DNA of 42,438 nucleotides from positions 1 to 42,438 of the forward strand of contig NZ_VSZS01000050.1 of NCBI RefSeq assembly GCF_008180155.1. Reading direction: 5' to 3'. Under the pieces are notes generated by a model that saw nothing but the letters and a program-made list of their open reading frames with translations, did not search any database and was not told where the DNA came from. Source of the DNA: Neoaquamicrobium microcysteis (GTDB taxonomy: Bacteria; Pseudomonadota; Alphaproteobacteria; Rhizobiales; Rhizobiaceae). The translations under genes were made by a program, and so were the position numbers. Positions 22,809 to 42,047 of this stretch are shown here, piece by piece. Each line of letters begins with the position of its first letter. The stretch's first letter is position 1.

Positions 22809-22841
22809 AAGAAGGTTGGATATCAGGCCCATGCCCTCCGC
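22809..22841. repeat. 33-bp dispersed repeat, copy B
   Basis: This copy differs at a few positions from copy A; similarity extends five bases further left (CACAA before the repeat in both). It sits exactly where the IS5 transposase on the minus strand loses similarity to its family. The stretch 22700-22808 between the IS110 3' region and this repeat shows nothing recognisable. Confidence 0.65.
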
Positions 22842-23215: not shown

Positions 23216-23308
23216 GACCAGCATGAATCAGTCAACATGCTGGCGTGCAAGAAAGATTTATAGGGACTGACCCTAGGTTCTCAATCAAAAAACGTACGGA
23301 GTTTGAAC

Positions 23309-24289: not shown

Positions 24290-24311
24290 ATCCAGGATAG
24301 CGGCGGCGGGC

Positions 24312-24555: not shown

Positions 24556-24631
24556 GCAGGTCATACAGGAGGTCGGGTCTCGCCATTCCGTCGAGGGTGC
24601 TTGCGATCAATAAAAACAATGACTTAGACTG

Positions 24632-24664
24632 GAGAAGGTTCGACGTCAGGCCCATCCCCTCCGC
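24632..24664. repeat. 33-bp dispersed repeat, copy C
   Basis: This copy differs from copy A at essentially one position in the 33 bp (GGTTCGACG instead of GGTTGGACG). It lies in non-coding DNA between the CorC-like remnant and the hypothetical gene at 24805. Confidence 0.7.
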
Positions 24665-24804
24665 CACTTCGGTATAAAACCGGGAACGCCGGTTCCCGCC
24701 GTCTTCCCTCGATCGCCGGGGCGGCGATACTCAGCTTGCCGAGTCTCGACGGAATATTGCATTGATGAAACTGGCAAAAAATCCCCACCTCGCACGTGCA
24801 AAAG

Positions 24805-25335: not shown

Positions 25336-25340
25336 AATCC

Positions 25341-25642
25341 TTATCCATTTCGTCTGGCTACTTTTTGAGCTTCAGTCCACTTGGCTGGGGGGTACTCTTT
25401 GATTTCAACTGTACCGCCGGCGAGCGCGATTGTAACGACGTCGCGATCCTTTGTGACGTAAAAGGAGCAGTCGGCGACCAGACGAAGTTCATCGTCGACG
25501 AGTTCCGCAGCGAGAATGTCGGCAGAGAAACTCTCATGCAGACGCTCCCCTGCGCCACCAAGGAATCGAAGCTGCCTGCGATAGACCGCGACATCGAGGA
25601 GGTACTCCGTCCGGTCCTTGCGTCGGTCCGGGTCGTCGCTGT
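25341..25642 (-). pseudogene. 3' fragment of an unknown gene cut by a transposon
   Basis: The minus-strand frame is open from the transposon border (25643) to TAA at 25341, giving about 100 residues with protein-like composition (YLLDVAVYRRQLRFLGG, ELVDDELRLVADCSFYVTK, DVVTIALAGGTVEIKEYPP). The 5' part has been removed by the element at 25643-26941, whose far side joins an unrelated helicase gene. I do not recognise the family. It is directly upstream of and probably cotranscribed with the 176-aa gene. Confidence 0.5.
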
Positions 25643-25743
25643 TGTCGATTTACACTTCAATCTTGGACTCGGGCGTTTTTGGCAATAATGTTACACTCCA
25701 ATTCAGACTCAGGACGAGTGAGTCTCAATTGAAGTGTAAGGGT
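25643..25743. repeat. 101-bp exact direct repeat, copy 1 (transposon tniB-side end)
   Basis: Bases 25643-25743 are identical to 42227-42327, same orientation. The stretch is the tniB-side end of the element and contains three copies of the short end repeat. Confidence 0.9.
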
Positions 25744-25751
25744 CTGGGCGG

Positions 25752-26354
25752 CTATGCGAAGGCTGCTTCCTTCTCCAAGGCTGGCCTCCAGGATTCAATG
25801 CTGTCGTCGGTGATGCGCTCGATACCATTCTGGATCGCCTCGATTGCGAGCTCGTTGAGTATCCCGAATACGCGAGCTGTGATGCCGTCACCGAGGCGAG
25901 AAAGGTGCCGTAGGCTTTGGCTTGACAAAGAGGATGGCAGCCTGAGCGGCAGGCTGCGCAGGATCGCCGTTACAAGTTCCTGGAACTCCTCATCTGCCTT
26001 CCATCTGGGCAGCACAAACTGATCCAGACGTCGGGCCAGTTGTGTGTCGCCGGCAATCGCATCACGCGCTTCCGATACGCCAAGGCAGACAAGCGACGCT
26101 TTGATCTCGTTGCTCAGATATCGCAGAAGCTGGAGGATCACCCGCTGTTCCCTCGGCGTGCCGGCGAGGAGGTTATGCACCTCGTCAAACACCAGAACAC
26201 GCACATTGTTGCTTTTCAGCAAGAGGACGGTTCGGATCTCGAGTTCCATGAGGGTCAGACGTTCGTTGATGCTGGCTCCCATGGCCATGAGCAACTGCCC
26301 GTAGATCCGGCGCTCTGTCGGACGTGATGTCAACGTAATCGCTAGCACCGGCAT
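25752..26354 (-). pseudogene. tniB: TniB-like ATP-binding transposition protein, N-terminally truncated
   Basis: About 200 residues of TniB remain: MPVLAITLTSRPTERRIYGQ, the Walker B VLVFDEVHNLLAG, then PREQRVILQLLRYLSNEIK, and the sensor/arginine region DTQLARRLDQFVLPRW. The Walker A region at the N-terminus has been lost in the deletion that joins it to the tniA start. The frame extends further upstream but in the wrong frame of tniA, so that extension is not real. TniB normally assists the TniA transposase in target selection; without Walker A it should not bind ATP. Confidence 0.75.
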
Positions 26355-26389
26355 GCTCTCCACGCCGGTGCTGGGGTTGATCGTCGGTG

Positions 26390-26790
26390 GATGATCGCGC
26401 TTGGACGGTGCTGCGGTGAGGAGGGGACAAACCTTCGGTGAGGCAGACTTCCCGTATACGTCGCAACAGCGCAGCAAGGCTTGGCTTCTCCTTTTTAAGC
26501 CAGAAGCCATCAACCTGCTCGGCAATGATGCGCTCGGTTCTCGGGTCGAGCCTGACAGCGCCTTCGTGAGTACCACGTTTCCTTGGTCGCAGACTTGATG
26601 TGCGTTGCGTCTTTCTGAACCGCGCAGCCAGCCGGAACAGCGTCGATCGCGGGATGCTAAACCTTTCGCGCGCAGCCGCAACAACCTCAGCGGTTACTTG
26701 CCCGCCTGTACGGCGAAGCAGATATCGAAGGAACTCTTCCGGGTTGTCATCTTGATCGGGGTTATCCGAGGATGAGATCATACCCGACAC
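26390..26790 (-). pseudogene. tniA: TniA-like transposase, N-terminal DNA-binding part only
   Basis: From ATG 26790 about 132 residues resemble the N-terminus of TniA/Mu-type transposases. They include helix-turn-helix segments (AAARERFSIPRSTLFRLAARF) and the LAALLRRIREVCLTEGLSPPHRSTVQ region. Similarity stops at about 26395, and the DDE (rve) catalytic core is missing. The remaining residues of the open frame are tniB sequence read out of frame. Such a fragment might still bind the element ends. Confidence 0.7.
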
Positions 26791-26941
26791 TACGGTCGAT
26801 AGACCGGTCGATCAATCTCAATTTGAGTGTAACAAATGCCCGCCAGAGTCTCATTTGAAGCATAAGGCGTTACACTTCAGTCTCACGCAAACCGTTGAAA
26901 ACACTCAATGCGTGAGTCCCAGCTTCAAACGTAAATTGACA

Positions 26942-28774
26942 CTCGCTTCATCGAAGCGAAGAACCCGGGCAGGGCGCTTGTGCTGGCGTCGGGAACCCCG
27001 ATCACCAACACGCTCGGCGAAATGTTCTCGGTCCAGCGGCTGATGGATCACGCGGCCCTGATGGAACGCGGCCTGCACGTTCGACGCCTGGGCCTCGACC
27101 TTCGGTGACACCACGACCGAGCTCGAGCTTCAGCCATCCGGCAAATACAAGCCGGTCTCGCGTTTCGCCAGCTTCGTCAACGTGCCGGAGCTGATCGCGA
27201 TGTTCCGCTCCTTCGCGGATGTCGTTATGCCCGAGGATCTGCGCCAGTATGTGAAAGTGCCGGCGATTTCGACGGGTAAGCGCCAGATCGTCACCTCGAA
27301 GCCGAGCTCGGCGTTCAAGCGCTACCAGCTGGTGCTCGATGCGCGCATCAAGGCCATCGAGGAGCGCGAACGGCCTCCGGAACCGGGCGACGACATCCTG
27401 CTCTCGGTCATCACCGATGGCCGCCACGCGGCGATCGACCTGCGCCTGGTCGATGCCGACAATGACAACGAGCCGGACAACAAGCTCAACAATCTCATCT
27501 CGAACGCCTATCGCATCTGGCGGGAGACCGGTGGCAACAGCTACGTCCGGCCCGACGGCAAGCGGTTCGAGCTGCCCGGCGCCGCCCAAATGATCTTCTC
27601 CGATCTCGGCACGATAAACGTCGAGAAGACGCGAGGCTTCTCGGCCTATCGTTGGATTCGCGACGAGCTGATCCGTTTGGGCGTTCCAGCCTCCGAGATC
27701 GCCTTCATGCAGGACTACAAAAAGACCGAGGCCAAGCAGCGTCTGTTCGGCGACGTCCGCGCCGGCAAGGTCCGCTTTCTTCTCGGCAGCTCCGAGACCA
27801 TGGGCACCGGCGTCAACGCCCAGCTTCGCCTCAAGGCGCTGCACCATCTCGACGTGCCCTGGCTTCCATCCCAGATTGAGCAGCGCGAAGGCCGTATCGT
27901 GCGGCAGGGAAACCAGCACGACGTGGTCGATCTTTTCGCATACGCCACCGAGGGCAGCCTCGACGCCACCATGTGGCAGAACAACGAGCGCAAGGCCCGC
28001 TTCATCGCAGCAGCCCTGTCCGGCGACACTTCGATCCGGCGGCTGGAAGATATGGGCGAGGGGCAGGCGAACCAGTTCGCCATGGCGAAGGCAATCGCGA
28101 GTGGCGACCAACGCCTGATGCAGAAAGCGGGGCTGGAAGCCGACATCGCACGCCTCGAACGATTGCGCGCGGCCCATATCGACGATCAGCACGCCGTGCG
28201 GCGCAGCATCCGTGATGCCGAGCGCGATATCGAGCATTCCACCCGCCGTATTGCCGAAATCGGGCAGGATATCGCGCGGCTGGTTCCGACATCCGACGAA
28301 GCCTTCGCGATGACGGTCGCGGGCAAATCCTACGTCGACCGCAAGGAGGCCGGCCGCGCTCTGCTCAAGGAGATCCTCACCCTCGTGCAACTCCAGCAGG
28401 AGGGTGAGACGGTCATCGCGTCGATCGGCGGCTTCGAGCTTGAATTCTCGGGCCAGCGCTTTCGGAAGGATAGCTATCACTATGGCACCGTCCTCAAGCG
28501 CACCGAGGCAGATGTCGAGATCGACCTGCCGATCACGGTGACGCCGCTCGGCGCGATCTCCCGTCTCGAGCACGCGCTGTCCGGATTCGAGCATGAGCAG
28601 GAGCGCTATCGCCAGCGCCTCGCCGATGCGCGCCGCCGGCTGACCTCCTATCAATCCCGCGGCGATGGTGACGAATTCGCTTTCGCCGGCGAGCTTGCTG
28701 AAAAGCGCAGGCAGCTCAACGAGATCGAAAAGGCGCTTGCCGATGCCGGTTCTGAGGGCAAACAGGCGGCTTGA
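26942..28774 (+). pseudogene. Plasmid-type SNF2/DEAD helicase (methylase-helicase), C-terminal part, frameshifted
   Basis: The sequence right of the transposon encodes the C-terminal third of a very large helicase found on alphaproteobacterial plasmids, often with an N-terminal adenine methylase. Visible motifs are ASGTPITNTLGEMFSVQRLMD (about 26980-27045), FLLGSSETMGTGVNAQL (27777-27830) and the motif VI region PSQIEQREGRIVRQGNQH (27868-27920). A coiled-coil C-terminus with ARLERLRAAHI and SGFEHEQERYRQRLADARRR follows. The first segment is in a different frame from the rest; one base too many near 27080 (CACGTTCGAC) explains this. An in-frame start for the remainder would be 27182. The 5' part was removed by the transposon, so it is non-functional. 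Confidence 0.8.
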
Positions 28775-28809
28775 ATATCCCGATGGCGGGGAGACAGAGA
28801 ACCGGACGC

Positions 28810-28838
28810 TTGCACAAAATCTGAATTTTCTGTATTAT
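28810..28838 (+). promoter_or_regulatory. Candidate sigma-70 promoter of the toxin-antitoxin pair
   Basis: TTGCAC (28810-28815) and TATTAT (28833-28838) are spaced by exactly 17 nt, in an AT-rich patch directly upstream of the antitoxin ATG (28866). The adjacent sequence CTGTATTATCCGATTAAGACAG is a loose dyad (CTGT...ACAG) that could be the autoregulatory site. Confidence 0.65.
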
Positions 28839-28865
28839 CCGATTAAGACAGAAAGGGCTTGAGCC

Positions 28866-29126
28866 ATGGATACCGTCACCACCGTCGAATTCATGCGCCA
28901 TTTCGGGCGCTATCATGATGAGGCCAAGAAGCGGCCTATTACGCTCACCAAGCATGGCCGCCCCTCGGTCGTCGTCATGCCGGTAGAGCTTTATGAGAAG
29001 CTGAAGGGCCACGCCGATCCGCGCCGCGCCTATAAGGCCGGCGAAATGCCCGATGATCTAGCTGCCATGTTCCTGGAGCAGTTGGACAAGGATTCCGCTG
29101 AATACCAAGCCTCGACCGATGAGTGA
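28866..29126 (+). CDS. Type II antitoxin, Phd/YefM family
   Basis: This 86-aa protein has the Phd/YefM N-terminal DNA-binding fold: TVEFMRHFGRYHDEAKKRPI, then TLTKHGRPSVVVMPVELYEKL. The flexible acidic C-terminal tail (MPDDLAAMFLEQLDKDSAEY) would neutralise the toxin. AAAGGG lies just upstream of ATG 28866. It overlaps the toxin gene by 8 nt, the usual arrangement for coupled translation. It is expected to repress its own promoter alone and with the toxin. Intact. Confidence 0.88.
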   Translation: MDTVTTVEFMRHFGRYHDEAKKRPITLTKHGRPSVVVMPVELYEKLKGHADPRRAYKAGEMPDDLAAMFLEQLDKDSAEYQASTDE

Positions 29127-29541
29127 CGGGTTCCGGCGCGGAGACATCGTCTCCTACCCCTATCTCTGGCGCTGGCAGGTCGACGAGAACCCGGATCGGG
29201 AGCATGGCGAGAAAGACCGCCCCGTCTGCATGATCCTGACCATCGTCGACAAGCAGGGGCTAACGCACTTGCTGTTGTTGCCGATTTCGTCAAAGCCGCC
29301 TTTCGACGGGCAGCAGGCAATCGAAATCCCTCCATTGGAGTTGCGCCGGGCGAAACTGACAGGACACGCGCGCGGCTGGATCACCATCAGCGAGTGCAAC
29401 TACGACGTCCTTGAGCGGTCCTATTACCTGGACCAGAGTCAGGCTCCGATTGGCCGGTTCAGTGATGCCTTCCTTGAAACGATCCGGAAAGCCTTTGCAC
29501 CGTTTCTGGCGACCGGATCGGCGCGGATCAATCGCACCTGA
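29119..29541 (+). CDS. PemK/MazF-like plasmid-maintenance toxin
   Basis: This 140-aa protein overlaps the antitoxin gene. Its N-terminus (FRRGDIVSYPYLWRWQVDEN, then KDRPVCMILTIV) and core (LLLLPISSKPP, IEIPPLELRRAKLTG, WITISECNYDVLERSYYLD) resemble PemK/MazF-type growth inhibitors with an extended Trp-rich N-terminal loop. RGD and the RPVC strand correspond to the usual MazF fold positions. The predicted activity is mRNA cleavage, by family. It appears intact. The Phd antitoxin combined with a PemK-like toxin is a mixed pairing. Confidence 0.75.
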   Translation: MSDGFRRGDIVSYPYLWRWQVDENPDREHGEKDRPVCMILTIVDKQGLTHLLLLPISSKPPFDGQQAIEIPPLELRRAKLTGHARGWITISECNYDVLERSYYLDQSQAPIGRFSDAFLETIRKAFAPFLATGSARINRT

Positions 29542-30845: not shown

Positions 30846-30874
30846 ATGGCACAGTGTTTCATTATATGGCACAG
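30846..30874 (+). promoter_or_regulatory. Direct repeat at the iclR start (candidate operator)
   Basis: ATGGCACAG occurs at 30846-30854 and again at 30866-30874, 20 bp apart (two helical turns), just downstream of the predicted promoter and overlapping the possible start codons of the regulator gene. This fits autoregulation but is inference. Confidence 0.35.
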
Positions 30875-31642
30875 ATGAGCAAATCGCTTGAAAAAGGTAT
30901 GGCCGTCCTTGAATTGCTGGATGAAACCCCGGCAGGGCTTGGCGTTCGCGAGATGGCTCGGCGGCTTGATATGCCAGCATCGAACGTCCAGCGGCTGGTG
31001 ACTACGTTCGAAAAGCTCTCCTATGTGGAGAAGATCGAAACCAGTCGGACATACCGCTTGAGCTTCAAGGCCTACTTCCTTGGACAGTCGGCCCTGCGGA
31101 GCGACCGATTGGCTATCGCCGCCAGCCCGGAAATCGAGCGGCTCGCCAGCGAGCATAATGTCTGCGGCTATCTGTCGGTGCGGCATCAGGATCGCGCGGT
31201 CTACGTGCAGGTCAACGAGACGCACGGGATCGTCTCCACACATATGGCTCCCGGTGCCAGCATCCCGCTGCACACGACCGCGATGGGCAAGATCCTGCTG
31301 TCCGCCTTGGGCGACGACGAGATACGCGGCCTGCTCGGGCCGGGTCCGCTTCTGGCGCTGACCTCGAAATCGGTGACGGACGTGGAGGTCCTGCTCGGCG
31401 ATATCCGTCAGGTGCGCGAGAAGGGGATGGCTTTTATCGTCGAAGAGAACATCTACGGCATCGCTTCGCTTGCGGCTCCGATCTTCAACTACACCGGGCG
31501 CATGGTCGCCGCACTGAGCGTGGCAATACCCACTTCATCGAAGGTCGATGAGGACTTTGAGCGGTTGTCCCGCGTCGTGGCGGGTGCCGCGCGGAGAATA
31601 TCCGTTGCGTGCGGCTATGAAGCCGGCGCGCAGGACCAATGA
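30866..31642 (+). CDS. IclR-family transcriptional regulator
   Basis: This protein of about 258 aa has an N-terminal winged helix (about 5-65: SLEKGMAVLELLDE, GLGVREMARRLDMPASNVQRLVTT) and a C-terminal IclR effector-binding domain (about 80-255: SVRHQDRAVYVQV, PGASIPLHTTAMGKILLSAL, GMAFIVEENIYGIASLAAPIF). Possible starts are GTG 30854, ATG 30866 and ATG 30875; ATG 30866 or 30875 best fits the domain start. It lies 34 bp upstream of the binding-protein gene on the same strand. It is the likely local regulator of the transport/hydantoinase operon, responding to a small organic effector in the IclR domain. Confidence 0.88.
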   Translation: MAQMSKSLEKGMAVLELLDETPAGLGVREMARRLDMPASNVQRLVTTFEKLSYVEKIETSRTYRLSFKAYFLGQSALRSDRLAIAASPEIERLASEHNVCGYLSVRHQDRAVYVQVNETHGIVSTHMAPGASIPLHTTAMGKILLSALGDDEIRGLLGPGPLLALTSKSVTDVEVLLGDIRQVREKGMAFIVEENIYGIASLAAPIFNYTGRMVAALSVAIPTSSKVDEDFERLSRVVAGAARRISVACGYEAGAQDQ

Positions 31643-31676
31643 ATGCAGTTTTAACCATAATCGAGAAGGAACACGC

Positions 31677-32784
31677 ATGCGTATGATAATGGGATGTATG
31701 ACGGCCGTGTCGCTGCTTGTCGGCGGCGCCGTCTCAGCGCAGGCCGAAACCGTGAAGGTCGGCCAGCTCTGCTTTCAGCGGGGCGATCGGTTTCCAGGGT
31801 CCTGACGCTCGCAAGGGCATCGAGCTGGCGATCAAGCAGCTCAAGGAAGGCGGTTCCGCCGTCGACTACGAGTTGGTCATTGCCGATGATGAATGCACGC
31901 CTGCCGGCGGTGCGTCCGCGTTCCGCAATCTGCTTGAGGTTCAGCAGGTCGATGTCATCTTGGGTTCGGGCTGTTCCGGCGCGACGCTGGGCGGCATGCC
32001 CGCATTGCTGGAGGGCGCGGAGGTGTCGGCGATCACCTACGGTTCGACCAACCCGAAGATCACCTCTGCCGGCAATCCGTTCATGTGGCGCATGAACCTG
32101 AACGACGCCACCATCGCCAAGTCGTTCTCCCAGTACATCCTCGATGACGGGGTGAAATCGGTCCATATCCTGTCGGTCAACAACGATTTCGGGCGCGGCG
32201 CGGCTGACGTCTATCAGAAGTCGCTTCCCGAACTGGACGTCGAGGTCAAGGGTTCCGACTTCTTCACGACGGGAACCGCGGATCTGCGCAGCATGATGTC
32301 CAAGATTGCGCAGGGCAAGCCCGACGCCATCTTGTTCTTCGGCGAGCCGCCAGATTGCGCGCTCCTCGTCCGCCAGAAGCGCGAGTTGAACATTGACGTG
32401 AAGCTGTTCTCGCGTGGCGGTTGCTACACCGACGAAGCTCTGCACCTGATGGGCGATCCGAAGCTCGGCAACGGGCTGACGGAGGCTGCATACTGGGCGC
32501 GAACCCCCGAGCAGCCGATGGTCGAGGCGTTCAAGGCCACCTATGGCGACTACCCTGCCTACAACGCCGCGCTCGCCTACTACGCGATGCTGACCGTCAA
32601 CGAGGCGGTCAAGGCCGGCGGCGCAAGCCGTGAAGGTATCAACAAGGGGCTGGCTGAGGTCGACGCGGTGCTCGATATCGGACCGATCAAGTTCGACGAG
32701 ACTCGCCAGGCCTATCCGAACCTCTTCCTGGTGAGGATCGACGACGGCGAGAGCAAGGTACTCAAGACCGTCACCACACACTGA
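31677..32784 (+). pseudogene. Liv-type ABC transporter substrate-binding protein, frameshifted near the N-terminus
   Basis: The gene starts at ATG 31677 (ribosome-binding site GAGAAGGA) with a clear signal peptide (MRMIMGCMTAVSLLVGGAVS, then AQA). It reads into the mature start ETVKVGQL, then shifts frame in the CAGCTCTGCTTTC stretch (31768-31780) and would end at 31805. The other frame continues at once with SAFSGAIGFQGPDARKGIEL and the complete Peripla_BP_6 protein to 32784 (DDECTPAGGASAFRNLLEV, GSGCSGATLGGMPALLEG, VNNDFGRGAADVYQKSLPEL). Loss of two bases from a CT repeat would explain it. Either the gene is inactivated, slippage occurs, or the base call is wrong. The role would be periplasmic capture of the operon's substrate. 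Confidence 0.85.
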
Positions 32785-32792
32785 TGCCAGTC

Positions 32793-32826
32793 GACTACCG
32801 GCCGGGATGATGCCCGGCTGGTAGTC
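32793..32826 (+). terminator. Strong intercistronic hairpin after the binding-protein gene
   Basis: GACTACCGGCCGGG (32793-32806) pairs with CCCGGCTGGTAGTC (32813-32826): 14 bp including one G-T pair, with a 6-nt loop. There is no T-run. Such hairpins between a binding-protein gene and its permease genes usually stabilise the upstream mRNA or partly stop transcription. The rest of 32827-32940 shows no gene. Confidence 0.7.
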
Positions 32827-32940
32827 AGATTGTCTTTCGCTTGCAGTTTGCACGAAATGCGTTGGGCCGTGGCTGTTGTCGCGACCGTCCGGCCCCTAAC
32901 GCGTGCGCTTTCCCGGCAATGATTTTCACGTGGAGATCAA

Positions 32941-33813
32941 ATGGACCTCCTGTTCACCCAGTTATTGAACGGCCTGACGGCGGGTGCCGAATACGCCCTC
33001 GTAGCGGCAGGGCTCGCATTGCTGTTCGGCATCCTGCAGATCGTCAATTTCGCGCATGGCGAGTTTTACATGCTCGCAGCGTTCATTCTCTATGTCCTGC
33101 TTGCCGTAGTCGGACTGCCTTACTACGCCGCAGCGCCGCTGACCGTGTTGCTGATGGCGTGCGCAGGTGTGCTGTTCTATGCCATCGTCATTAGCAGGGT
33201 GATCTCGCGCCCATGGCAGATTCAGCTCATTTCCACGCTTGCCCTATCCATCGTGATGATCAATCTCGCTATCGTGCTGTCAGGTCCTACGCCGCGCTAC
33301 GTCGAGAGCCCTCTGAACAACGTTATCCTTGATCTGGGAAGCGTACGGATCTCGGCCCAACGTGTGCTGGTGCTTCTGGGGACCATAGTTTCCTTCGCCG
33401 CGCTCTACCTTGGACTGAAGTACACGCGTACCGGCAAGGCCATGCGCGCGGTTGCGCAGAACCGTGAGGCGGCTGCCGTGGTCGGCATCGGCGTTCCCGT
33501 GATCGGTCTCGTCACCACTGTTGTCGCCGCATCCTTCGCCGGTCTCGCTGGCGCGCTGATCGCTCCGCTCTATGCCGTCGGGCCAACGATGGCCGTTCTC
33601 GTCAACATCAAGGCCTTTGCCGCCGTCATCGTCGGTGGCTTCGGCAACGTGAAGGGAGCGATCGTAGCCGCATTCGTCATCGGATTGCTGGAGGCTGCGT
33701 CAACGACGTTGATTTCGACGGAGTATACCGACGCGATCGTCTTCGGCGGAATGATACTGATATTGCTGTTCAGGCCCAACGGGCTGTTCGGCAAGGCTGT
33801 GAGGGTAGGCTGA
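32941..33813 (+). CDS. livH: Liv-type ABC transporter permease (LivH-like)
   Basis: This 290-aa membrane protein of the BPD_transp_2 family starts LFTQLLNGLTAGAEYALVAA and contains GLALLFGILQIVNFAHGEFYM and a conserved cytoplasmic loop with KAMRAVAQNREAAAVVGI. Eight to nine helices are predicted. It forms one half of the inner-membrane channel of a branched-chain amino acid-type transporter; in this operon the substrate is probably a small amide or ureide rather than a branched-chain amino acid. The stop overlaps the next start by one base (TGATG). Confidence 0.87.
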   Translation: MDLLFTQLLNGLTAGAEYALVAAGLALLFGILQIVNFAHGEFYMLAAFILYVLLAVVGLPYYAAAPLTVLLMACAGVLFYAIVISRVISRPWQIQLISTLALSIVMINLAIVLSGPTPRYVESPLNNVILDLGSVRISAQRVLVLLGTIVSFAALYLGLKYTRTGKAMRAVAQNREAAAVVGIGVPVIGLVTTVVAASFAGLAGALIAPLYAVGPTMAVLVNIKAFAAVIVGGFGNVKGAIVAAFVIGLLEAASTTLISTEYTDAIVFGGMILILLFRPNGLFGKAVRVG

Positions 33814-35627
33814 TGGACGCTATATCCTCCCGTTTCATGCGCGATTACGGCTGGCTGCTCATCCTGCTGGTGGCGGCCGCCCTCGTGCCCGTGTTCTCTC
33901 AGTCGAACTATTACATCAGCATCGGCATCAACGCGCTCATCATCGTTTGTCTGGCGGTCTCCTTCGACCTGGTGGTCGGCCGCGTCGGCGCTCTCAGTTT
34001 CGCTCAGCCCGTGTTTTACGGCTTCGGCATGTATGTCGCCGCGCTGCTGGCGGTGAATCTGGAGATGGGCTTCTGGTGGCAGGTCATAGCGGCCATGGCG
34101 GGTGGCATGTTGCTGGCCCTTGTCGTTGGCATACCGTCTTTCCGCCTGAACCTGCACGCTTTCGCCATCGGTACGCTGGGCTTCGCCACCATCGCGCATC
34201 TCATTGCCACCAACTGGATGGAGGTGACGCAGGGGCCGATGTGCGTCGCCGGGGTGCCGCGCGCGACCATCCCGCTCGGCTTCATGGAAATCGCGCCATG
34301 GAAGCTGCCGCAGCAATACTACTTCATTCTCACGATCGCGGCGATGGTGGTGGTGGCCTCGGTCGCGATCAACCGTCGCAAGCTCGGCCTGGCCTTCCAG
34401 GCCGTGCGGGATGATCCGGTGCTGGCGGCGTCGAACGGGTTCTTTCCAACGAGCCTGCGGCTCACGGCTTTCGCGGTTGCGGCGGCGTTCTCCGCTGTGG
34501 CTGGCGTGTTTGCTGCCCAGTTCCAGACGGTGGTTTGTCCGGACTCGTTCTCGACCGCGACCACGGTTACGCTGCTGATCGTCGCATTCATTGGAGGCCG
34601 GGCCAGCCTGCGTGGAGTGCTCACTGCTTCGATCATCTTCACTGTGCTGCCCCAGGTGCTGCGCATCGCGGACGAATGGCGCATGGTCATTTTCGGCCTG
34701 CTGCTGCTCGTCATCGTCCTGTCCGCGCCGGACGGCATCGAGCACCTGTTTCAGCGCGTCGAGCGTTGGCGGAAAGGGCGGCGTGAGGGCGGCAAGGCTT
34801 CGGGCGTCAGTGCCCAGCCTTTCGCGGCTGATACGATCGCCGACATCACGCCGCTCGGCGCGGAGGAGCGGATCGATGGCGGGCATCTCAGGATATCCGG
34901 TCTGTCCAAGGCGTTCGCCGGGGTCAAGGCTGTGGATGATCTTTCGCTGGAGGTGCGCCCCGGTGAACTGGTCGGATTGATCGGGCCGAATGGCTCGGGC
35001 AAGTCCACCACGCTTGACTGCATATCCGGTATCACGAAACCCGATGCGGGCCGTGTCGAATTGGATGGCATCGACATTACCGGCATGTCTTCCAGCGCGC
35101 TGGCCAAGCGGGGTCTGGTCCGGACCTTCCAGTCCACGCGCGTCTACGAGACGCTGACCGTGCGGCAAAACCTCGCCGTGGCTCTGCATGGGCGCCAGTC
35201 GATTATGGCAGAATGGGCTTCATACCTGTCGCCGCAATCCGAGAGCCGGTCGTTCCGCGAACGTGCCGACCATCTGATCGAAACACTCAATCTCAAGCAT
35301 GTCGAGCATCGCAAGGCGGGAGAATTGTCCTATGGTCAGCGCAAGCTCGTCCAGTTCGCGGCGTCCGTCATCAGCCCGCCGCGTGTCCTGCTGCTCGACG
35401 AGCCGCTGGCCGGTGTCAATCCGACCATCATCAACCTGTTCATGAGGCATATCGCCGCGAACCATGGGGCGGGACTGACCATCATCCTTGTGGAGCACAA
35501 TCTCGGCGTTGTCGTGCAACTGTGCGAGCGGCTGGTCGTGCTTGAGCAGGGGCGCAAGCTGGCGGACGGCAACCCGCACGATGTCATGGGCACCCCCAGT
35601 GTTCAGGAGGCGTATCTTGGCCGTTGA
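33813..35627 (+). CDS. Fused ABC permease-ATPase (LivM-LivG)
   Basis: This 604-aa protein joins a LivM-type permease (about 1-310: NALIIVCLAVSFDLVVGRVG, ALSFAQPVFYGFGMYVAALL) and, after a charged linker (about 312-350), a LivG-type ATPase. ATPase motifs are Walker A GPNGSGKST near 391, signature LSYGQRKLVQF near 504, and Walker B RVLLLDEPLAGVNP near 524; the C-terminus GTPSVQEAYLGR is typical of LivG. LivM-LivG fusions are known and complete. The single polypeptide fixes the stoichiometry of one ATPase per permease. It overlaps livF by 11 nt. Confidence 0.88.
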   Translation: MDAISSRFMRDYGWLLILLVAAALVPVFSQSNYYISIGINALIIVCLAVSFDLVVGRVGALSFAQPVFYGFGMYVAALLAVNLEMGFWWQVIAAMAGGMLLALVVGIPSFRLNLHAFAIGTLGFATIAHLIATNWMEVTQGPMCVAGVPRATIPLGFMEIAPWKLPQQYYFILTIAAMVVVASVAINRRKLGLAFQAVRDDPVLAASNGFFPTSLRLTAFAVAAAFSAVAGVFAAQFQTVVCPDSFSTATTVTLLIVAFIGGRASLRGVLTASIIFTVLPQVLRIADEWRMVIFGLLLLVIVLSAPDGIEHLFQRVERWRKGRREGGKASGVSAQPFAADTIADITPLGAEERIDGGHLRISGLSKAFAGVKAVDDLSLEVRPGELVGLIGPNGSGKSTTLDCISGITKPDAGRVELDGIDITGMSSSALAKRGLVRTFQSTRVYETLTVRQNLAVALHGRQSIMAEWASYLSPQSESRSFRERADHLIETLNLKHVEHRKAGELSYGQRKLVQFAASVISPPRVLLLDEPLAGVNPTIINLFMRHIAANHGAGLTIILVEHNLGVVVQLCERLVVLEQGRKLADGNPHDVMGTPSVQEAYLGR

Positions 35628-36351
35628 GAAAGAACCGCTGCTCGAACTACGCGACGTCCATGCCGGCTACGGCGAACTGAGCATCCTCAAGGGGGTTTCG
35701 TTCGGCGTGGGCGGCGGCACCGTCACCTCGGTGATCGGTGCCAACGGCGCGGGAAAGTCGACCCTGCTGAAAACCATCTTCGGAATGCTGAAGGTCCGAG
35801 AGGGAGACGTCAGCTTCGAGGGGCGCTCCATCGCCGCGTTGGGCACGGTCAAGCGTCTGAAGGCCGGTATCGCGATCGTACCACAAGGCCGCTGCAACTT
35901 TCCGCAGATGACCATTCGCGAAAACCTGGAAATGGGCGCCTATACGCGATCCGACGACGGGATTGAGGCCGATCTCCAGCATATGGTCGACCAGTTCCCC
36001 ATCTTGCGGGAGAAGCTGCATCTTCTGGCCGGCGACATGAGCGGCGGGCAGCAGCAGATGCTGGAGATGGCGATGGCTCTCATGGTGAGGCCCAGGGTGC
36101 TTCTCCTCGATGAGCCGTCGCTAGGTCTCTCGCCGATGATGATCGACGAGGTGTTTACCTCGATCCGCTCACTGGCCGAGGTCAACGGAATGGCCATCAT
36201 CATGGTCGAGCAGAACGCGGTCCAGGCGCTGAAGATCTCTGATCTCGGCGTGGTCATCGAATTGGGGCGCGTCAGCGCCACCGGAACCGGACCGGAAATG
36301 CTGAACGATCCGGACATTCGCAAAGCCTATCTCGGCCTGCCCGTCATCTGA
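35617..36351 (+). CDS. livF: Liv-type ABC transporter ATPase (LivF-like)
   Basis: This 244-aa protein has Walker A GANGAGKST near 42, signature MSGGQQQMLEMAMAL near 140 and Walker B RVLLLDEPSLGLSP near 161. The likely start is TTG 35617, placed 6 nt after a strong AGGAGG (35605-35610) inside the end of the livM-livG gene; no ATG fits the family's N-terminus (EKEPLLELRDVHAGYG). It completes the transporter with LivH and LivM-LivG. It is followed 18 bp downstream by the racemase-family gene. Confidence 0.88.
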   Translation: MAVEKEPLLELRDVHAGYGELSILKGVSFGVGGGTVTSVIGANGAGKSTLLKTIFGMLKVREGDVSFEGRSIAALGTVKRLKAGIAIVPQGRCNFPQMTIRENLEMGAYTRSDDGIEADLQHMVDQFPILREKLHLLAGDMSGGQQQMLEMAMALMVRPRVLLLDEPSLGLSPMMIDEVFTSIRSLAEVNGMAIIMVEQNAVQALKISDLGVVIELGRVSATGTGPEMLNDPDIRKAYLGLPVI

Positions 36352-36369
36352 TTTCGAAGGGATGTTATC

Positions 36370-37101
36370 ATGACACTCGAGCCAATCGGACTTGGCATCA
36401 TCACCCCATCAGCCAATTCGATCATGGAGCGCGACTTTCCGCGCCTGGAGATTCCAAAGGTAGGCTTTCATTTCTCCCGCGTGCTCAACAGCGAGGATTC
36501 GCTGGAGCAACTGAGTGCGATGAAGGAACGGGCACGCGAGGCGGCGCAACTGCTGAGCCATGCCCGTTGGGTGAAGGCCGTAGCGCTCGGCTGTACCTCC
36601 GGCAGCTTCATCGGCGGTGTCGGTTACGACGAGGGTGTCAGCGACGTGCTGACGGAGGCGTCCGGCCTGCCCTCGATCACCACGTCAAGCAGCATTCTGG
36701 TTGCCCTGAGGGCGCTTGGACTGCGCAAGCTTGCAGTCTTCGACCCCTATGAGCCGTGGCTGTCCGCCAAGCTGGTCGCCTACCTCCAGGGAAATGGCTT
36801 CGAAGTCGTGGCCAGCCACTGCAATTTCGGCATGGTGAGGACGGAGGGGCTGGACGACTATCAGCCGATCAACGAATGGATCGCGCCGCGCATGCCCGAC
36901 GAGGCCGATGGTGTCTACATCGGCTGCACCAACTTCACCTGGTTGCGTGGCATCGCGCCGCTGGAGAAGGCGATCGGAAGACCCGTCGTGACAAGCAATC
37001 TGGCTACCGTATGGAAGCTGCTCCAGATCGCCGGATACCCGCATCCGGTCCCAATCGCTGGCACCCGGCTCAGCCAACTGGACGTCTGGGAGACGGCGTG
37101 A
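36370..37101 (+). CDS. Asp/Glu racemase superfamily protein, maleate isomerase/arylmalonate decarboxylase-like
   Basis: This 243-aa protein has the two catalytic cysteines of the Asp/Glu racemase superfamily: C75 in VALGCTSGSFIGG and C186 in YIGCTNFTWL. The N-terminal PIGLGIITPSANSIMERDF matches the maleate cis-trans isomerase/AMDase branch. It could isomerise a cis-dicarboxylate or racemise/decarboxylate an intermediate. Placement between the transporter and the hydantoinase genes suggests it handles a ring-opened or side-chain acid. Substrate unknown. ATG 36370 follows AAGGGATG-type spacing. Stop and next start overlap (TGATG). Confidence 0.82.
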   Translation: MTLEPIGLGIITPSANSIMERDFPRLEIPKVGFHFSRVLNSEDSLEQLSAMKERAREAAQLLSHARWVKAVALGCTSGSFIGGVGYDEGVSDVLTEASGLPSITTSSSILVALRALGLRKLAVFDPYEPWLSAKLVAYLQGNGFEVVASHCNFGMVRTEGLDDYQPINEWIAPRMPDEADGVYIGCTNFTWLRGIAPLEKAIGRPVVTSNLATVWKLLQIAGYPHPVPIAGTRLSQLDVWETA

Positions 37102-38309
37102 TGGCACAGCTTCCCCTCGAGGGAAAAATGCAGGAGATCAGGGCCGATGCGCCGTCGCTGGACAGGCGTATCTTCCTGATGAGCTGCGGCGCCTCCATTA
37201 TGCCGCAGCCGGTCGTGCAGGCCATGCACGATTATCTCGATCTTGAGGCCGATGTCGGCGGCTATGCAGCCGCCGACATCGAGGCGCGCAGGATCGCGGA
37301 CGTACATACCTCCGTCGCCCGGCTGCTTAACGCGAAGGACGAGGAGATCGCCCTCGTCGAGAACGCAACCGTCGCCTGGCAGAAGGCCTTCTATTCGCTT
37401 CCGTTCAAGGCCGGCGACGTGGTGCTGACTGTGGAGGCGGAATATGCGGCCAACTATGTCGCCTATCTTCAGATTAAACAGCGGCACGGCATAGACATCC
37501 GCGTCGTCTCCTCGGATGAAACGGGTCAGGTCGATCTGGATGCGCTCGAGGCGATGATCGACGACAAGGTGAAGCTGATCTCAGCCACCTGGATTCCGAC
37601 CAATGGCGGACTGGCCAACCCAGCGAAAGAGATCGGCCTGATCGCGCGGCGGCATGGCATTCCCTATCTGCTCGACGCCTGCCAGGCGGTCGGCCAGATC
37701 CCTGCCGACGTGGAAGAACTGAACTGCGACTTCCTTGCCGGAACCTCGCGCAAGTTCCTGCGTGGGCCGCGCGGAGCCGGGTTCCTCTATGTGCGAAAGG
37801 AAAGGCTGGCGGATCTCGATCCGGTCATCATCGATCATTGGGGCGCTCCTTGGGTGGAACGCGACCGCTACGAATTGCGGGCCGACGCCCGCCGGTTCGA
37901 GACGTGGGAAAGCAATTGCGGCAACCGCATCGGCATGGGGGTTGCGATCGACTACGCCCTCGCGCTCGGGCTCGACCAGATCGAAGCCCGTTGCCAGATC
38001 CTGTCGGATCGCCTGCGCGGGGGTCTTCGCGATATTTCCGGCGTTGAGGTTCTCGATCTCGGCCCTCGTCCAAGCGCGATCGTCAGTTTCCGTGCCGAAG
38101 GAATGCCGGCCTGGGAGATCGTGAGACAGGCGGCAACCCGCGATGTGATCATCGGGGTGACGGGCAAGGCCAGTACGCTGATCGATGCCGAGCGACGGGG
38201 CCTTGCGCAGCATGTCAGGGCGGCGCCGCACTATTTCAACACCGTCGAGGAAATCGACACGACGGTCGAGGTCGTCGCAGGCCTCCTGAAGAGCAATCAC
38301 ACGAACTGA
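37101..38309 (+). CDS. Class V aminotransferase (PLP; isopenicillin N epimerase/SufS-like fold)
   Basis: This 402-aa PLP enzyme has an aspartate that should contact the PLP pyridine, D192 (LLDACQAVGQIPAD), and a Schiff-base lysine, K218 (GTSRKFLRGPRGAGFLYV). The N-terminal region (FLMSCGASIMPQPVVQAMHD, ENATVAWQKAFYSLPF) fits the class V family. By sequence it could be an aminotransferase, a lyase or an epimerase; the context of ring-cleaving hydantoinases favours amino acid or amide processing. ATG 37101 shares one base with the preceding stop. Complete; it lies 76 bp before hyuA. Confidence 0.85.
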   Translation: MAQLPLEGKMQEIRADAPSLDRRIFLMSCGASIMPQPVVQAMHDYLDLEADVGGYAAADIEARRIADVHTSVARLLNAKDEEIALVENATVAWQKAFYSLPFKAGDVVLTVEAEYAANYVAYLQIKQRHGIDIRVVSSDETGQVDLDALEAMIDDKVKLISATWIPTNGGLANPAKEIGLIARRHGIPYLLDACQAVGQIPADVEELNCDFLAGTSRKFLRGPRGAGFLYVRKERLADLDPVIIDHWGAPWVERDRYELRADARRFETWESNCGNRIGMGVAIDYALALGLDQIEARCQILSDRLRGGLRDISGVEVLDLGPRPSAIVSFRAEGMPAWEIVRQAATRDVIIGVTGKASTLIDAERRGLAQHVRAAPHYFNTVEEIDTTVEVVAGLLKSNHTN

Positions 38310-38385
38310 GTTTCACACCGGGGGAGCCGCCCGCAGGACGACCGTTCTGCGTCATAAGCCGGCCCGGAATTTTACGGAGCATAGA

Positions 38386-40473
38386 ATGTCGAAACACGCG
38401 AATGTGCGGATGGCGGCGGATATCGGCGGTACGTTTACCGATGTCGTGCTCCAGGTGGGCAGCGACCGGCGGCTCACCCGCAAGGTGCTGACTACGCCCG
38501 ACCAGCCGGAGATCGGCATGCTGAATGGGCTGTCGCTTGCGCTGCAGGATGGCGGGCTGAACTTCGCGGACGTCGATGTCTTCGTGCATGGAACGACCCT
38601 TGCGACAAACGCGATAATCGAGCGAAGAGGCGCGAGGACCGTGCTGGTCGCGACCGAGGGGTTCCGGGACGTTCTCGACATCGCGACGGAAAGCCGCTTC
38701 AACCAATACGACCTGATGATCGAAAAGCCGACGCCGCTGATCCCGCGTTCGGCGCGCTTCACCGTCCCGGAGCGGATCGACGCCACCGGCAAGGTCCTCC
38801 TGCCGCTCGACGTCGAGGCAATGCGCGCGCTGGCTCTGGAACTCAAAGATCAGCAGGTCGAGGCCATAGCCGTGGTGTTCATCCATGCGTATGCCAATGT
38901 CGCGCACGAACTGGAGGCGGAACGCATTCTGCGTGAGAAAATGCCGGACGTTTCGATCTCGCTCTCTCACAAGGTCTGCCCCGAGGTGCGCGAATACGAG
39001 CGCACCTCCACGACCGTGGCCAACGCTTATGTACAACCGCTGATGCAGGGCTATCTCGGTCGCATGGCGGAGGAGCTTCTGAAGCGCGATTTCAATGGCG
39101 CGACCTATCTGATGACGTCGGGCGGCGGCCTGACTTCTCTCGATGTCGCGCGCGACTTTCCTGTCCGGCTGGTCGAATCAGGCCCTGCCGGCGGCGCGAT
39201 CTTCGCTTCTCTGATCGCGCTGGCTGCCGGGGAGCGAAATGTACTGTCCTTCGACATGGGCGGGACGACGGCCAAGGTGTGCCTCATACAGGAGGGCGCG
39301 CCGACGACGTCGCGCTTTTTCGAGGTCGACCGCACCGAACGCTTTATGAAGGGGTCCGGGCTGCCGCTGCGCATCCCCGTGATCGAAATGGTTGAGATCG
39401 GTGCTGGCGGTGGATCGATCGCCAAGGTCGATGGTTTGGGGAGAATCCAGATCGGTCCGCAAAGCGTGTCCTCCAAGCCGGGTCCTGCGTGCTACGATCT
39501 TGGCGGAGATATCCCTTCCGTGACTGACGCCGACCTCGTCCTCGGGTTGATAGAATCGGAGAATTTCGCCAACGGCACGATGACCCTTCGGCCCGACCTG
39601 TCGCGCGCAGCTCTGGCGCGGGACGTCGGGTCAAAGCTTGGTGTGGAGCCGGAGGCGGCAGCCTTTGGCATCTACGAGGTCGTTTGCGAGAACATGGCAA
39701 GCGCTGCCCGCATGCATGCGGCCGAGTTGGGAGCACCGGTCGATCGGTACACCATGATCGCATTCGGCGGCGCAGCGCCTTTGCATGCCGCGCGCGTCGC
39801 GGAAAAAGTCGGCATTGAAAAGGTCCTCATTCCTGCGAATGCTGGGGTGGGGTCGGCTGTCGGCTTTCTGGCGGCGCCGGTTGCCTATGAGGTCATCAGG
39901 TCGTTCCCGCAGAAGGTCAGCGAGGCGTTCGATGTCGAGGGTGTCCGCGCGCTGCTTGCGGGGATGGAGCGCGATGCGAGGGCCCTTGTGGAACCAGGAG
40001 CCGAAGGGGCGCGCACATTCGAGCGGATGACGGCCTATATGCGCTATGTCGGCCAGGGCCATGAGATCGCCGTAGAAATTGCCCGCGACGAGTTGCGGCC
40101 AGGTGCGCAGGCAAGCCTGCGAAGCCGCTTCGAGGTTGAATACCGCAGGCAGTTCTCGCGCGAGATTCCCCTTGCTGACATCGAAGTGCTGACCTGGTCG
40201 GTTCTCGTGTCGACCTACTCGCAGCAGCCGGGGGTCTTCGCGCAGGCCACTAAGGTTGTGGCTCCGCCGCCGGTGGGTAGGCGCGAGCTCTTCGACGGAA
40301 GGCTGAACGCCCTCCTCGATGTGCCCGTCTATGATCGGGCGCAGATGCGGCCCGGATCGCAGGTGCAGGGACCGGCCCTCATCGGAGAGATCGAAACCAC
40401 TATCTACGTTCCCGCCGCCTTCGACGCTCGCGTGGACGGAGCGGGCAACATCGTTCTTGAGAAGAAGGCGTGA
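38386..40473 (+). CDS. hyuA: Hydantoinase/oxoprolinase subunit A (HyuA family)
   Basis: This 695-aa protein has the Hydant_A N-terminal and Hydantoinase_A domains with an actin-like ATP site: AADIGGTFTDVVLQ near 10, FDMGGTTAKVCLIQEG near 288, GAGGGSIAKVD near 339 and GPACYDLGG near 366. Family members cleave the ring of hydantoins, oxoproline or related cyclic amides with ATP, or carboxylate ketones with HyuB. ATG 38386 is preceded by ACGGAG. It is followed immediately by hyuB (overlapping or 5 nt apart depending on the start). Intact. Confidence 0.9.
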   Translation: MSKHANVRMAADIGGTFTDVVLQVGSDRRLTRKVLTTPDQPEIGMLNGLSLALQDGGLNFADVDVFVHGTTLATNAIIERRGARTVLVATEGFRDVLDIATESRFNQYDLMIEKPTPLIPRSARFTVPERIDATGKVLLPLDVEAMRALALELKDQQVEAIAVVFIHAYANVAHELEAERILREKMPDVSISLSHKVCPEVREYERTSTTVANAYVQPLMQGYLGRMAEELLKRDFNGATYLMTSGGGLTSLDVARDFPVRLVESGPAGGAIFASLIALAAGERNVLSFDMGGTTAKVCLIQEGAPTTSRFFEVDRTERFMKGSGLPLRIPVIEMVEIGAGGGSIAKVDGLGRIQIGPQSVSSKPGPACYDLGGDIPSVTDADLVLGLIESENFANGTMTLRPDLSRAALARDVGSKLGVEPEAAAFGIYEVVCENMASAARMHAAELGAPVDRYTMIAFGGAAPLHAARVAEKVGIEKVLIPANAGVGSAVGFLAAPVAYEVIRSFPQKVSEAFDVEGVRALLAGMERDARALVEPGAEGARTFERMTAYMRYVGQGHEIAVEIARDELRPGAQASLRSRFEVEYRRQFSREIPLADIEVLTWSVLVSTYSQQPGVFAQATKVVAPPPVGRRELFDGRLNALLDVPVYDRAQMRPGSQVQGPALIGEIETTIYVPAAFDARVDGAGNIVLEKKA

Positions 40474-40478
40474 CAGCC

Positions 40479-42047
40479 ATGGTGACAGATATGAACTTCC
40501 TCGACATGCAGATCATGTGGAACCGCCTCATCGCCGTGACCGGCGAGCAGGCCAAGACGCTGATCCGCACCGCCTTCAGCACTATCGTGCGCGAATGCGA
40601 GGACATCTCCGCCGGCGTCTTCGACCTTCGGGGGCGCATGATCGCGCAGGCCGTGACCGGAACACCGGGACACATCAACTCCATGGCGGAATCCGTGAAG
40701 CATTTCATCGCCCGGTTTCCGCTGGACACGATGAAGGAGGGCGATGCCTACATCACGAACGACCCGTGGATGGGGACGGGACATCTGAACGACTTCGTCA
40801 TCACGACGCCGGCCTTCCACAAGGGGCGACTGGTCGCCCTGTTCTCATGCACGAGCCATCTGATGGATGTCGGCGGCATGGGGGTGAGCACCGAAGCGGA
40901 CGACGTCCATATGGAGGGTCTCTACATCCCCATTTTGAAGCTTATCGACCGGGGACAGGTCGACGAGGTTCTGATGGAGATCATCAAGGCGAACTCGCGT
41001 CTGCCGGTCGAGACCGAAGGCGATGTCTATTCGCTGGTCGCGTGCAACGAAACCGGCGCGCGCGCGCTCTCAAAGATGATGGACGAGTTCGAACTGGAAT
41101 CGATCGACGCTCTTGCGGACTTCGTGCTGACTCGCTCCGAGGACGCGGTCCGCAAATCAATCGCCGCCTTGCCGAAGGGGTCCTGGTCCTACGGGATGGT
41201 CACCGACGGCTACGACGACCCGATCGAACTGGCGGCGCAGCTCACCGTGTCGGACAATGGCATTCATGTGGATTTTGCCGGGACATCCCAGTCGATCAGG
41301 AAGGGGATCAACGTGCCTCTTTCCTACACGACCGCCTATTCGGTTTTCGGACTTGGCTGTGTGGTCGCGCCGGATGTTCCCAACAATGCCGGCTCGTTGC
41401 TGCCTTTCACGATCTCCGCGCCTGCCGGCACCATCCTCAATGCGATCAAGCCCGCGCCGGTGGCCTCCCGCCACGTGATCGGCCAGATGCTTCCCGACGT
41501 GGTTTTCGGATGCCTGCGCCAGGCCCTGCCCGATCGGGTGCCGGCGGAAGGCGCATCTGCACTATGGAACGTGACCGTACGCGGACGGCACAAGACGGAC
41601 GCGGCAGAGGAAAAGCCGTTCGCTTTGTCGATCACCATGAATGGCGGCACCGGCGCTCGCCCGACAAAGGACGGGCTTTCCGCGACCGCTTTCCCTTCGG
41701 GCGTGCACGGCACTCAGGTGGAGATCGCGGAAATCCAGGCTCCCATCGTTGTCTGGAAAAAGGAGCTTCGTATCGGCAGCGGTGGAAACGGCAGGATGCG
41801 GGGAGGGGACGGGCAGGTGGTGGAGATGTCCGGCCGTGACGGCACGGCCTTCGACCTGCTCGCTTCGTTCGACCGCGTGGTCTACCCGGCGCGCGGCGCG
41901 CAGGGCGGAGATGATGGCGCAGCCGGCGCCATTCGCCTGAAGTCTGGCAAGCCGATCCGCGCCAAAGGTGTAACCAGGATCGACGCAGACGACAGGTTGA
42001 TACTGCTCACGCCCGGCGGCGGTGGCCTGGGCGACGCGACGCATTGA
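40479..42047 (+). CDS. hyuB: Hydantoinase/oxoprolinase subunit B (HyuB family)
   Basis: This protein of about 522 aa is the Hydantoinase_B partner: FSTIVRECEDISAGVFDLRG near 30, DPWMGTGHLNDFVITTPAF near 95, LFSCTSHLMDVGGMG, and the C-terminal part with MNGGTGARPTKDG near 387 and PGGGGLGD at the end. ATG 40479 is preferred, as AGAAGG ends 10 nt upstream; GTG 40470, overlapping the hyuA stop by 4 nt, is the alternative. With HyuA it forms the ATP-dependent cyclic amide hydrolase. It is the last gene of the operon. Intact. Confidence 0.9.
   Translation: MVTDMNFLDMQIMWNRLIAVTGEQAKTLIRTAFSTIVRECEDISAGVFDLRGRMIAQAVTGTPGHINSMAESVKHFIARFPLDTMKEGDAYITNDPWMGTGHLNDFVITTPAFHKGRLVALFSCTSHLMDVGGMGVSTEADDVHMEGLYIPILKLIDRGQVDEVLMEIIKANSRLPVETEGDVYSLVACNETGARALSKMMDEFELESIDALADFVLTRSEDAVRKSIAALPKGSWSYGMVTDGYDDPIELAAQLTVSDNGIHVDFAGTSQSIRKGINVPLSYTTAYSVFGLGCVVAPDVPNNAGSLLPFTISAPAGTILNAIKPAPVASRHVIGQMLPDVVFGCLRQALPDRVPAEGASALWNVTVRGRHKTDAAEEKPFALSITMNGGTGARPTKDGLSATAFPSGVHGTQVEIAEIQAPIVVWKKELRIGSGGNGRMRGGDGQVVEMSGRDGTAFDLLASFDRVVYPARGAQGGDDGAAGAIRLKSGKPIRAKGVTRIDADDRLILLTPGGGGLGDATH

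Follow-up and report, generated by a model that had tools for sequence, protein, structure and literature searches.

Closest described systems

ATP-dependent hydantoinase genes, hyuABC, have been described from Pseudomonas sp. NS671 (PMC8453981), and the caprolactam pathway of Pseudomonas jessenii is described as a lactamase, CapAB, working with an omega-aminotransferase (PMC6061476, PMC8453981). A branched-chain-type binding protein is listed there among the caprolactam-induced proteins, and a racemase acting with a lactam hydrolase is described as yielding L-lysine from α-amino-ε-caprolactam (PMC6061476). Here we analyse an operon of Neoaquamicrobium microcysteis (Rhizobiaceae) in which genes for a Liv-type importer are followed by genes for a two-cysteine racemase, a class V-fold pyridoxal 5'-phosphate (PLP) enzyme and the subunits HyuA and HyuB. 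The stretch analysed, hereafter the window, is the entire contig NZ_VSZS01000050.1 (G000:C29; 42,438 bases), one of the 68 that make up the 4.84 Mb genome (GCF_008180155.1). On balance the operon is probably an accessory, IclR-linked unit for the uptake and breakdown of a chiral cyclic amide, either lactam-like or hydantoin-like.

The operon resembles NS671 hyuABC in its HyuA and HyuB homologues and in a racemase of the same broad superfamily as HyuE, which is said to accompany those genes. It differs in having no carbamoylase HyuC, in having the class V enzyme and the Liv importer, and in that its racemase belongs to the EutA/arylmalonate decarboxylase group. As in the caprolactam pathway, a two-subunit, ATP-dependent lactamase-like enzyme is combined with a PLP enzyme, with the ATP and metal residues kept; however, the P. 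jessenii gene cluster as described contains no racemase, and its PLP enzyme is of class III. A racemase working with a lactam-opening enzyme also recalls α-amino-ε-caprolactam conversion, although there the two are known as an enzyme pair and the racemase is reportedly itself a PLP enzyme. The ectoine operon eutABCDE likewise combines import with degradation and places a PLP enzyme next to a racemase of this family, whereas the operon studied here has no eutB, eutC or eutD.

An earlier, sequence-only reading of the window knew of no named pathway with this exact gene set, and searches of open-licence PMC papers listed none that describes the racemase-class V-HyuAB-Liv combination in its title or the start of its abstract. 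The set is nevertheless less isolated than that reading implied. The idea of a wholly unique gene set was rejected since racemase-HyuAB recurs elsewhere, and the combination is a variant of precedents that include hyuABC, the caprolactam genes and proposed opine-lactam genes.

Organisation of the operon

The operon and its regulator span 30854 to 42047, all genes being co-directional. Eight genes follow the IclR gene, as judged from open reading frames (ORFs) and Pfam matches that lie far beyond chance (best E value per operon protein 1e-25 to 1e-147):

30854–31642, + strand: IclR-family regulator (PF01614, 122.8 bits; PF09339, 53.5 bits)
31677–32784, + strand: Liv-type periplasmic binding-protein gene, frame broken (PF13458, 138 bits on the main ORF; three-frame reading)
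32941–33813, + strand: LivH-like permease (PF02653, 129 bits)
33813–35627, + strand: LivM permease-LivG ATPase fusion, one ORF (PF02653, 127 bits; PF00005, 113 bits)
35629–36351, + strand: LivF-like ATPase (PF00005, 110 bits)
36370–37101, + strand: two-cysteine racemase/isomerase of the EutA/arylmalonate decarboxylase/maleate isomerase group (PF17645, 90 bits)
37101–38309, + strand: class V-fold PLP enzyme (PF00266, 197 bits)
38386–40473, + strand: HyuA, ATP-binding subunit of a predicted ATP-dependent cyclic-amide hydrolase (PF01968, 260 bits; PF05378, 162 bits)
40470–42047, + strand: HyuB, metal-binding subunit (PF02538, 492.5 bits)

The IclR gene ends 34 bases before the binding-protein ATG at 31677, on the same strand, and its product probably controls the operon. 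Downstream of the binding-protein gene the intergenic gaps are 156, -1, 1, 18, -1, 76 and -4 bases, the overlaps being those of LivH with LivM-LivG (1 base), of the racemase with the PLP enzyme (1 base) and of HyuA with HyuB (4 bases). The contig ends 391 bases after HyuB. The sequence-only reading had seven tightly spaced genes after IclR; the co-directional unit and its extent hold, but the genes number eight and LivM and LivG form one ORF. This structure, the touching coding ends and the kept active-site residues argue for one catabolic unit.

HyuA and HyuB

When compared with solved structures, HyuA scored 352 bits with N-methylhydantoinase, 350 with caprolactamase and 278 with acetophenone carboxylase gamma, whilst HyuB matched only N-methylhydantoinase and caprolactamase, and no carboxylase, in the structure set at E 1e-10. 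Among curated models, CapA gave 460 and CapB 177 bits (cut-off 1000 each, neither reached), against 282 for ApcC and 48 for ApcD (cut-off 1500). Because of these scores, HyuAB appears nearer to the ATP-dependent cyclic-amide hydrolases than to the ketone carboxylases. The proposal that HyuAB opens cyclic amides with ATP therefore stands as a prediction, and the carboxylase orthology that would have counted against it is not what the HyuB scores indicate. An assignment as acetophenone or acetone carboxylase was rejected on the ApcC and ApcD scores and on the presence of just two subunit genes in the operon.

Both phosphate loops are retained in HyuA (DIGGTFTD at 12 and DMGGT at 290) and contain the equivalents of CapA D11 and D295 in an alignment with 6yra_A. 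The adenosine motif of HyuA, GxxPGP, reads SSKPGP at 362, with Ser in place of the first Gly. HyuB D45, H105, D108 and H130 correspond to the Asp-His-Asp-His metal tetrad of CapB in caprolactamase (PMC8453981), a site that the carboxylases share. The vicinal cysteine pair of CapB is absent from the aligned HyuB stretch as read by eye, a further difference from caprolactamase besides the scores below cut-off. HyuA-type genes are common in the order (94/397 genomes at E 1e-160, with up to 38 unscored first-look candidates in one genome), and to our knowledge few such enzymes have a proven substrate. Two loci were returned by a contig search with HyuA, and at neither was there a match to the racemase or to class V.

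The racemase

Among curated models the racemase scores best with EutA (96 bits, cut-off 318) and with arylmalonate decarboxylase (88 bits, cut-off 225), neither cut-off being reached. C75 and C186 are invariant in all 11 aligned racemase sequences, the window's among them, and align with the two positions that we take to be catalytic in this group. Both cysteines are also present in the comparison with maleate cis-trans isomerase, where 4fq7 matched at 5.7e-16. The two-cysteine description given earlier is thus borne out, whereas "maleate isomerase-like" proves a loose label. Arylmalonate decarboxylase is described as having Gly74 and Cys188 at its catalytic positions, with a single catalytic cysteine (PMC4996985), and that identity was rejected on the score and on the presence of Cys at both positions. 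EutA was likewise rejected: besides its low score, the racemase falls outside the ectoine clade in the tree (below) and the operon holds none of eutB, eutC and eutD. The host genome's own ectoine eut cluster, with its own EutA, sits elsewhere (L110; G000:C47).

The PLP enzyme

The best curated model for the PLP enzyme is SufS (174 bits, cut-off 475). K218, D192, Q195 and R373 are invariant over 18 sequences, and K218 and R373 are common to other class V enzymes; we take K218 to be the PLP-binding lysine and R373 the carboxylate-binding arginine. Amino-acid-type residues are therefore kept, consistent with the suggestion that this enzyme would act on the product of ring opening. A role as cysteine desulfurase was rejected. 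The C-terminal loop, located by alignment to what is presumably the sulfur-carrying Cys of 5b7s, has no Cys in the window, and none was seen by eye in the 18 aligned rows. Kinship with the desulfurases, which had been invoked to keep a sulfur-containing substrate in view, is thus one of fold only because that cysteine is absent; such a substrate can still be entertained for a different reason, since a cystathionine beta-lyase fills the PLP slot of two racemase-HyuAB operons, those of Paracoccus yeei and Salipiger abyssi. The family is widespread (92/397 order genomes including the host's own at E 1e-45, identity up to 62%), and the window enzyme shares 24–29% identity with the class V enzymes of the other operons compared.

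Recurrence of racemase, HyuAB and PLP enzyme

A neighbourhood survey of the kind that the sequence-only reading had called for was carried out on locus stretches of at most 20 kb, except for L116 (30.7 kb) and L117. ORFs around unannotated loci came from a simple codon-score caller, and the PLSDB gene tables are incomplete. Seventy-three racemase-family places were examined, 22 of them ectoine clusters. Hyu genes were present at 11 of the 51 non-ectoine loci and a class V gene at 4, all 4 lying within the 11. The probability of this co-occurrence by chance is about 0.001, or 0.006 without L074, figures which related loci make optimistic. The class V marker came from L074 and the count is therefore biased; when L074 is left out, it becomes 3/3 within 10/50.

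Fourteen of the 97 plasmid records with a racemase match were chosen for variety and their neighbourhoods examined (H61, H62, H65, H68, H70, H71, H75, H77, H81, H89, H90, H92, H96, H98). In 8 of the 14, HyuA and HyuB adjoin the racemase, the nearer one within 2.5 kb: four haloarchaea, Roseomonas (with two genes between), Klebsiella, Salipiger and Paracoccus. In the other 6 there is no neighbouring HyuAB; a distant pair lies 9 kb off on the Mesorhizobium sp. AR10 plasmid and the remaining five have no Hyu match in the stretch. The haloarchaeal plasmid loci (L187, L188, L189, L195) carry a CopG-type regulator, an Nramp-like transporter, HyuA, HyuB and the racemase, and this "metal" transporter may carry an organic substrate.

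In Paracoccus yeei and Salipiger abyssi (L181, L192) the order is metC-racemase-HyuA-HyuB-MmgE/PrpD, with metC above the cystathionine beta-lyase cut-off in both. As in the window, PLP enzyme, racemase and HyuAB are contiguous; however, MetC takes the place of the class V enzyme, there is an extra PrpD, and the racemase and HyuA belong to other clades. By analogy, these operons point to a sulfur-containing cyclic amide. A class V relative led to Paraburkholderia sabiae, where the order is RidA-HyuB-HyuA-racemase, accompanied by a divergent class V gene. In Marinibacterium anthonyi, found via HyuA, HyuA and HyuB are succeeded by a kynureninase/SufS-like class V gene, with no racemase match in 18 kb. 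That plasmid stretch (L183) holds two HyuAB pairs, the kynureninase-like class V gene, RidA, DadA, an M20-type amidohydrolase and an NtaA/DmoA monooxygenase. A Rid-family gene is also present in L173. L074 is a second large uncharacterised catabolic cluster, comprising a polyamine/aminoethylphosphonate-type importer, a HutG-like deformylase, a GntG-family aldolase, an acetylornithine-type aminotransferase, a class V enzyme, HyuAB and a racemase.

Two trees were built, both quick and with long branches. In that of the racemase (87 rows) the ectoine rows cluster together (2 changes), whilst 6 changes are required for the HyuAB-adjacent rows, of which supported branches force at least 5; shuffles require 14.2. 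Only two rhizobial orthologues group firmly with the window racemase (support 100). The three share a long branch and fall with haloarchaeal HyuAB-linked rows in a weak group (90, drawn open), separate from the rows linked to metC or to class V genes. The HyuA tree, built from 24 chosen rows, places the window in a set of seven (99). At the six other loci of this set no racemase match is present, and the set is again separate from the metC-linked and class-V-linked groups. Apparently, then, racemase, HyuAB and a PLP enzyme have come together in at least three separate assemblies: that of the window, that with the other class V type, and that with MetC in Paracoccus and Salipiger. Judged from these sequences, the window looks like an independent assembly of a shared recipe, which would argue for a common chemical logic and not for common descent alone. 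Its recurrence restricts the chemistry to chiral cyclic amides that open to an α-amino acid. It would also mean that EutA-like racemases have a role beyond ectoine breakdown, and would provide a racemase-lactamase pair for making amino acids.

Distribution and genomic context

When searched with the racemase, samples of 397 order, 394 family and 385 class genomes (which may overlap) and 72,556 plasmids yielded no orthologous operon, nor the already characterised counterpart for which the sequence-only reading had allowed. Genomes with a racemase match, the host's own included, numbered 52/397 in the order sample (E 1e-20), 10/394 in the family sample (E 1e-26) and 3/385 in the class sample (E 1e-32). 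Besides the window racemase itself, no genome match exceeded 38% identity among the matches listed for these samples, and at E 1e-26 the racemase was absent from six same-genus genomes. The plasmid matches (97/72,556 records at E 1e-15) included two above 50% identity among the 40 listed, from Mesorhizobium sp. AR10 (54%) and Sinorhizobium meliloti KH35c (52%). Two racemase matches, G105:C16 and G692:C98, were left out of the locus examination. Moreover, co-location across the genome searches is undercounted because first-look candidates were scored only partly (up to 7 for the racemase, 4 for the PLP enzyme and 2 for HyuA).

The region upstream of the operon (21517–29541) contains an IS110 transposase, a TniB-like ORF, a helicase-C-like ORF and a Phd/YefM antitoxin with a partner ORF. 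The GC fraction is 0.658 over the first 24 kb, drops to 0.593 immediately before the operon and is 0.620 within it, compared with 0.637–0.651 in five other stretches of the genome. Taken together, the mobile-element context, the drop in GC and the patchy distribution point to an acquired accessory unit.

Proposed function and alternatives

In the proposed route, the cyclic amide would enter through the Liv-type importer, HyuA would use ATP to activate its ring amide, and HyuB, by means of its metal site, would open the ring to give an α-amino acid or the N-carbamoyl derivative. Inversion at the α-carbon, in the ring or in the opened product, would fall to the two-cysteine racemase and would make both hands usable. 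Finally, R373 of the class V enzyme would bind the α-carboxylate and K218 would form the aldimine, allowing the amino or a side group to be removed. Our first guess for this last reaction is a tentative one, β-elimination, suggested by analogy with the MetC and Rid-family genes of sister operons and by a class V enzyme that has no sulfur-carrier cysteine. Transamination, as in caprolactam breakdown, is the second candidate and somewhat less likely.

Several observations weigh against this route or against a strict three-part set. Forty of the 51 non-ectoine racemase loci are free of Hyu genes. L191 and L194 have a PLP gene (a GntG-family aldolase and a class V gene, respectively) about 5–6 kb from the racemase and no HyuAB, and thus count against such a set. 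The 17 places examined around relatives of the class V enzyme held neither Hyu genes nor a racemase, indicating that this family is usually a lone gene. At L094, which was picked for its nearby HyuA and hence excluded from the 17, an enzyme 54% identical lies 3.6 kb from HyuAB on the same strand, with no racemase match. The AR10 and KH35c racemase orthologues are followed by a D-amino-acid dehydrogenase and are not in a racemase-HyuAB operon; therefore the close racemase orthologues serve in other units, again adjoining an amine-removing enzyme. The proposed β-elimination leans on analogy with MetC and RidA neighbours of other operons. Lastly, the binding-protein gene is frame-broken in the assembly, its signal-peptide ORF (31677–31805) being in a different frame from the remainder (open from about 31756; called ORF 31873–32784), and uptake may therefore be impaired. 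On AR10 (L116, 13454–17142) a dihydroorotase, the racemase orthologue and the D-amino-acid dehydrogenase stand in a row.

Other explanations draw on much of the same evidence. The operon core matches NS671 hyuABC (PMC8453981), and in a hydantoin-type route the racemase would be a hydantoin racemase, HyuAB would yield an N-carbamoyl amino acid, a carbamoylase encoded elsewhere would release the amino acid and the PLP enzyme would degrade it. Two hydantoinase/carbamoylase-family genes do exceed their cut-offs in the host genome. However, the operon itself has no carbamoylase, and one candidate lies directly before a D-hydantoinase gene on another contig (G000:C41:61353-63992) and so probably belongs to a different unit, the pair probably forming a conventional ATP-independent route. 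We regard the hydantoin-type route as unlikely. That the operon is a decaying mobile passenger with no present function is, in our view, quite unlikely: the broken binding-protein gene, the IS110, TniB-like and antitoxin genes upstream, the lowered GC and the six same-genus genomes that lack the racemase would all fit, but the four enzyme ORFs are intact with their catalytic residues kept, and the single frame change may be an assembly error. Breakdown of a cyclic dipeptide (diketopiperazine) is improbable. Such a ring has a racemisable α-carbon, and an actinobacterial cyclo(His-Pro) cluster is said to contain racemases and oxoprolinase-like hydrolases, but no dipeptidase is found among the operon genes.

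In a further alternative, HyuAB would open a lactam derived from an opine or a glutamate-like amino acid. Ti-plasmid opine regions are described as holding HyuAB-like pairs for which the opening of lactam opines was proposed, and a putrescine-type importer lies in the same region (PMC6733357); L074 and L172 pair HyuAB with a LysR gene and a polyamine/aminoethylphosphonate-type importer ATPase (PhnT2, 384 and 382 bits; potA, 343 and 344 bits; all under cut-off). Opposed to this, that importer label is unspecific, the window importer is of Liv type, and the account of the opine regions names no opine oxidoreductase, racemase or PLP enzyme of this kind in the parts available (PMC6733357). Opine-lactam or amino-acid-lactam catabolism is accordingly very doubtful for the window. 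Least probable of all is that HyuAB is a ketone carboxylase and the set unconnected with cyclic-amide catabolism. The fold and motifs are shared, HyuA reaches 278 bits with acetophenone carboxylase gamma and one relative is annotated as acetophenone carboxylase, but the ApcC and ApcD scores lie below those of CapA and CapB, only two subunit genes are present, and the HyuB structure matches include no carboxylase.

Uptake and breakdown of a chiral cyclic amide thus remains our preferred reading. Its extension to a general, uncharacterised route is speculative and on present evidence rather unlikely. In this extension racemase, PLP lyase and ATP-dependent cyclic-amide hydrolase would have been assembled repeatedly from unrelated parts in bacteria (in haloarchaea without the PLP enzyme), and would serve cyclic amides of β-substituted, possibly sulfur-containing amino acids through ring opening, stereo-inversion and C-S or C-X β-elimination.

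Other features of the importer genes

Relatives of the binding protein reach 31% identity at best and therefore give no hint to its ligand. A blastn search of the plasmids with the importer gave a best coverage of 17%. The spacer between the binding-protein and LivH genes contains one further feature:

32793–32826, + strand: 14-pair GC-rich stem-loop (terminator consensus match only)

Terminator-like sites in the window show no excess (5 observed against 8.2 in shuffles), the remaining four having 5 pairs each. This stem-loop may be an attenuator that tunes the ratio of binding protein to permease.

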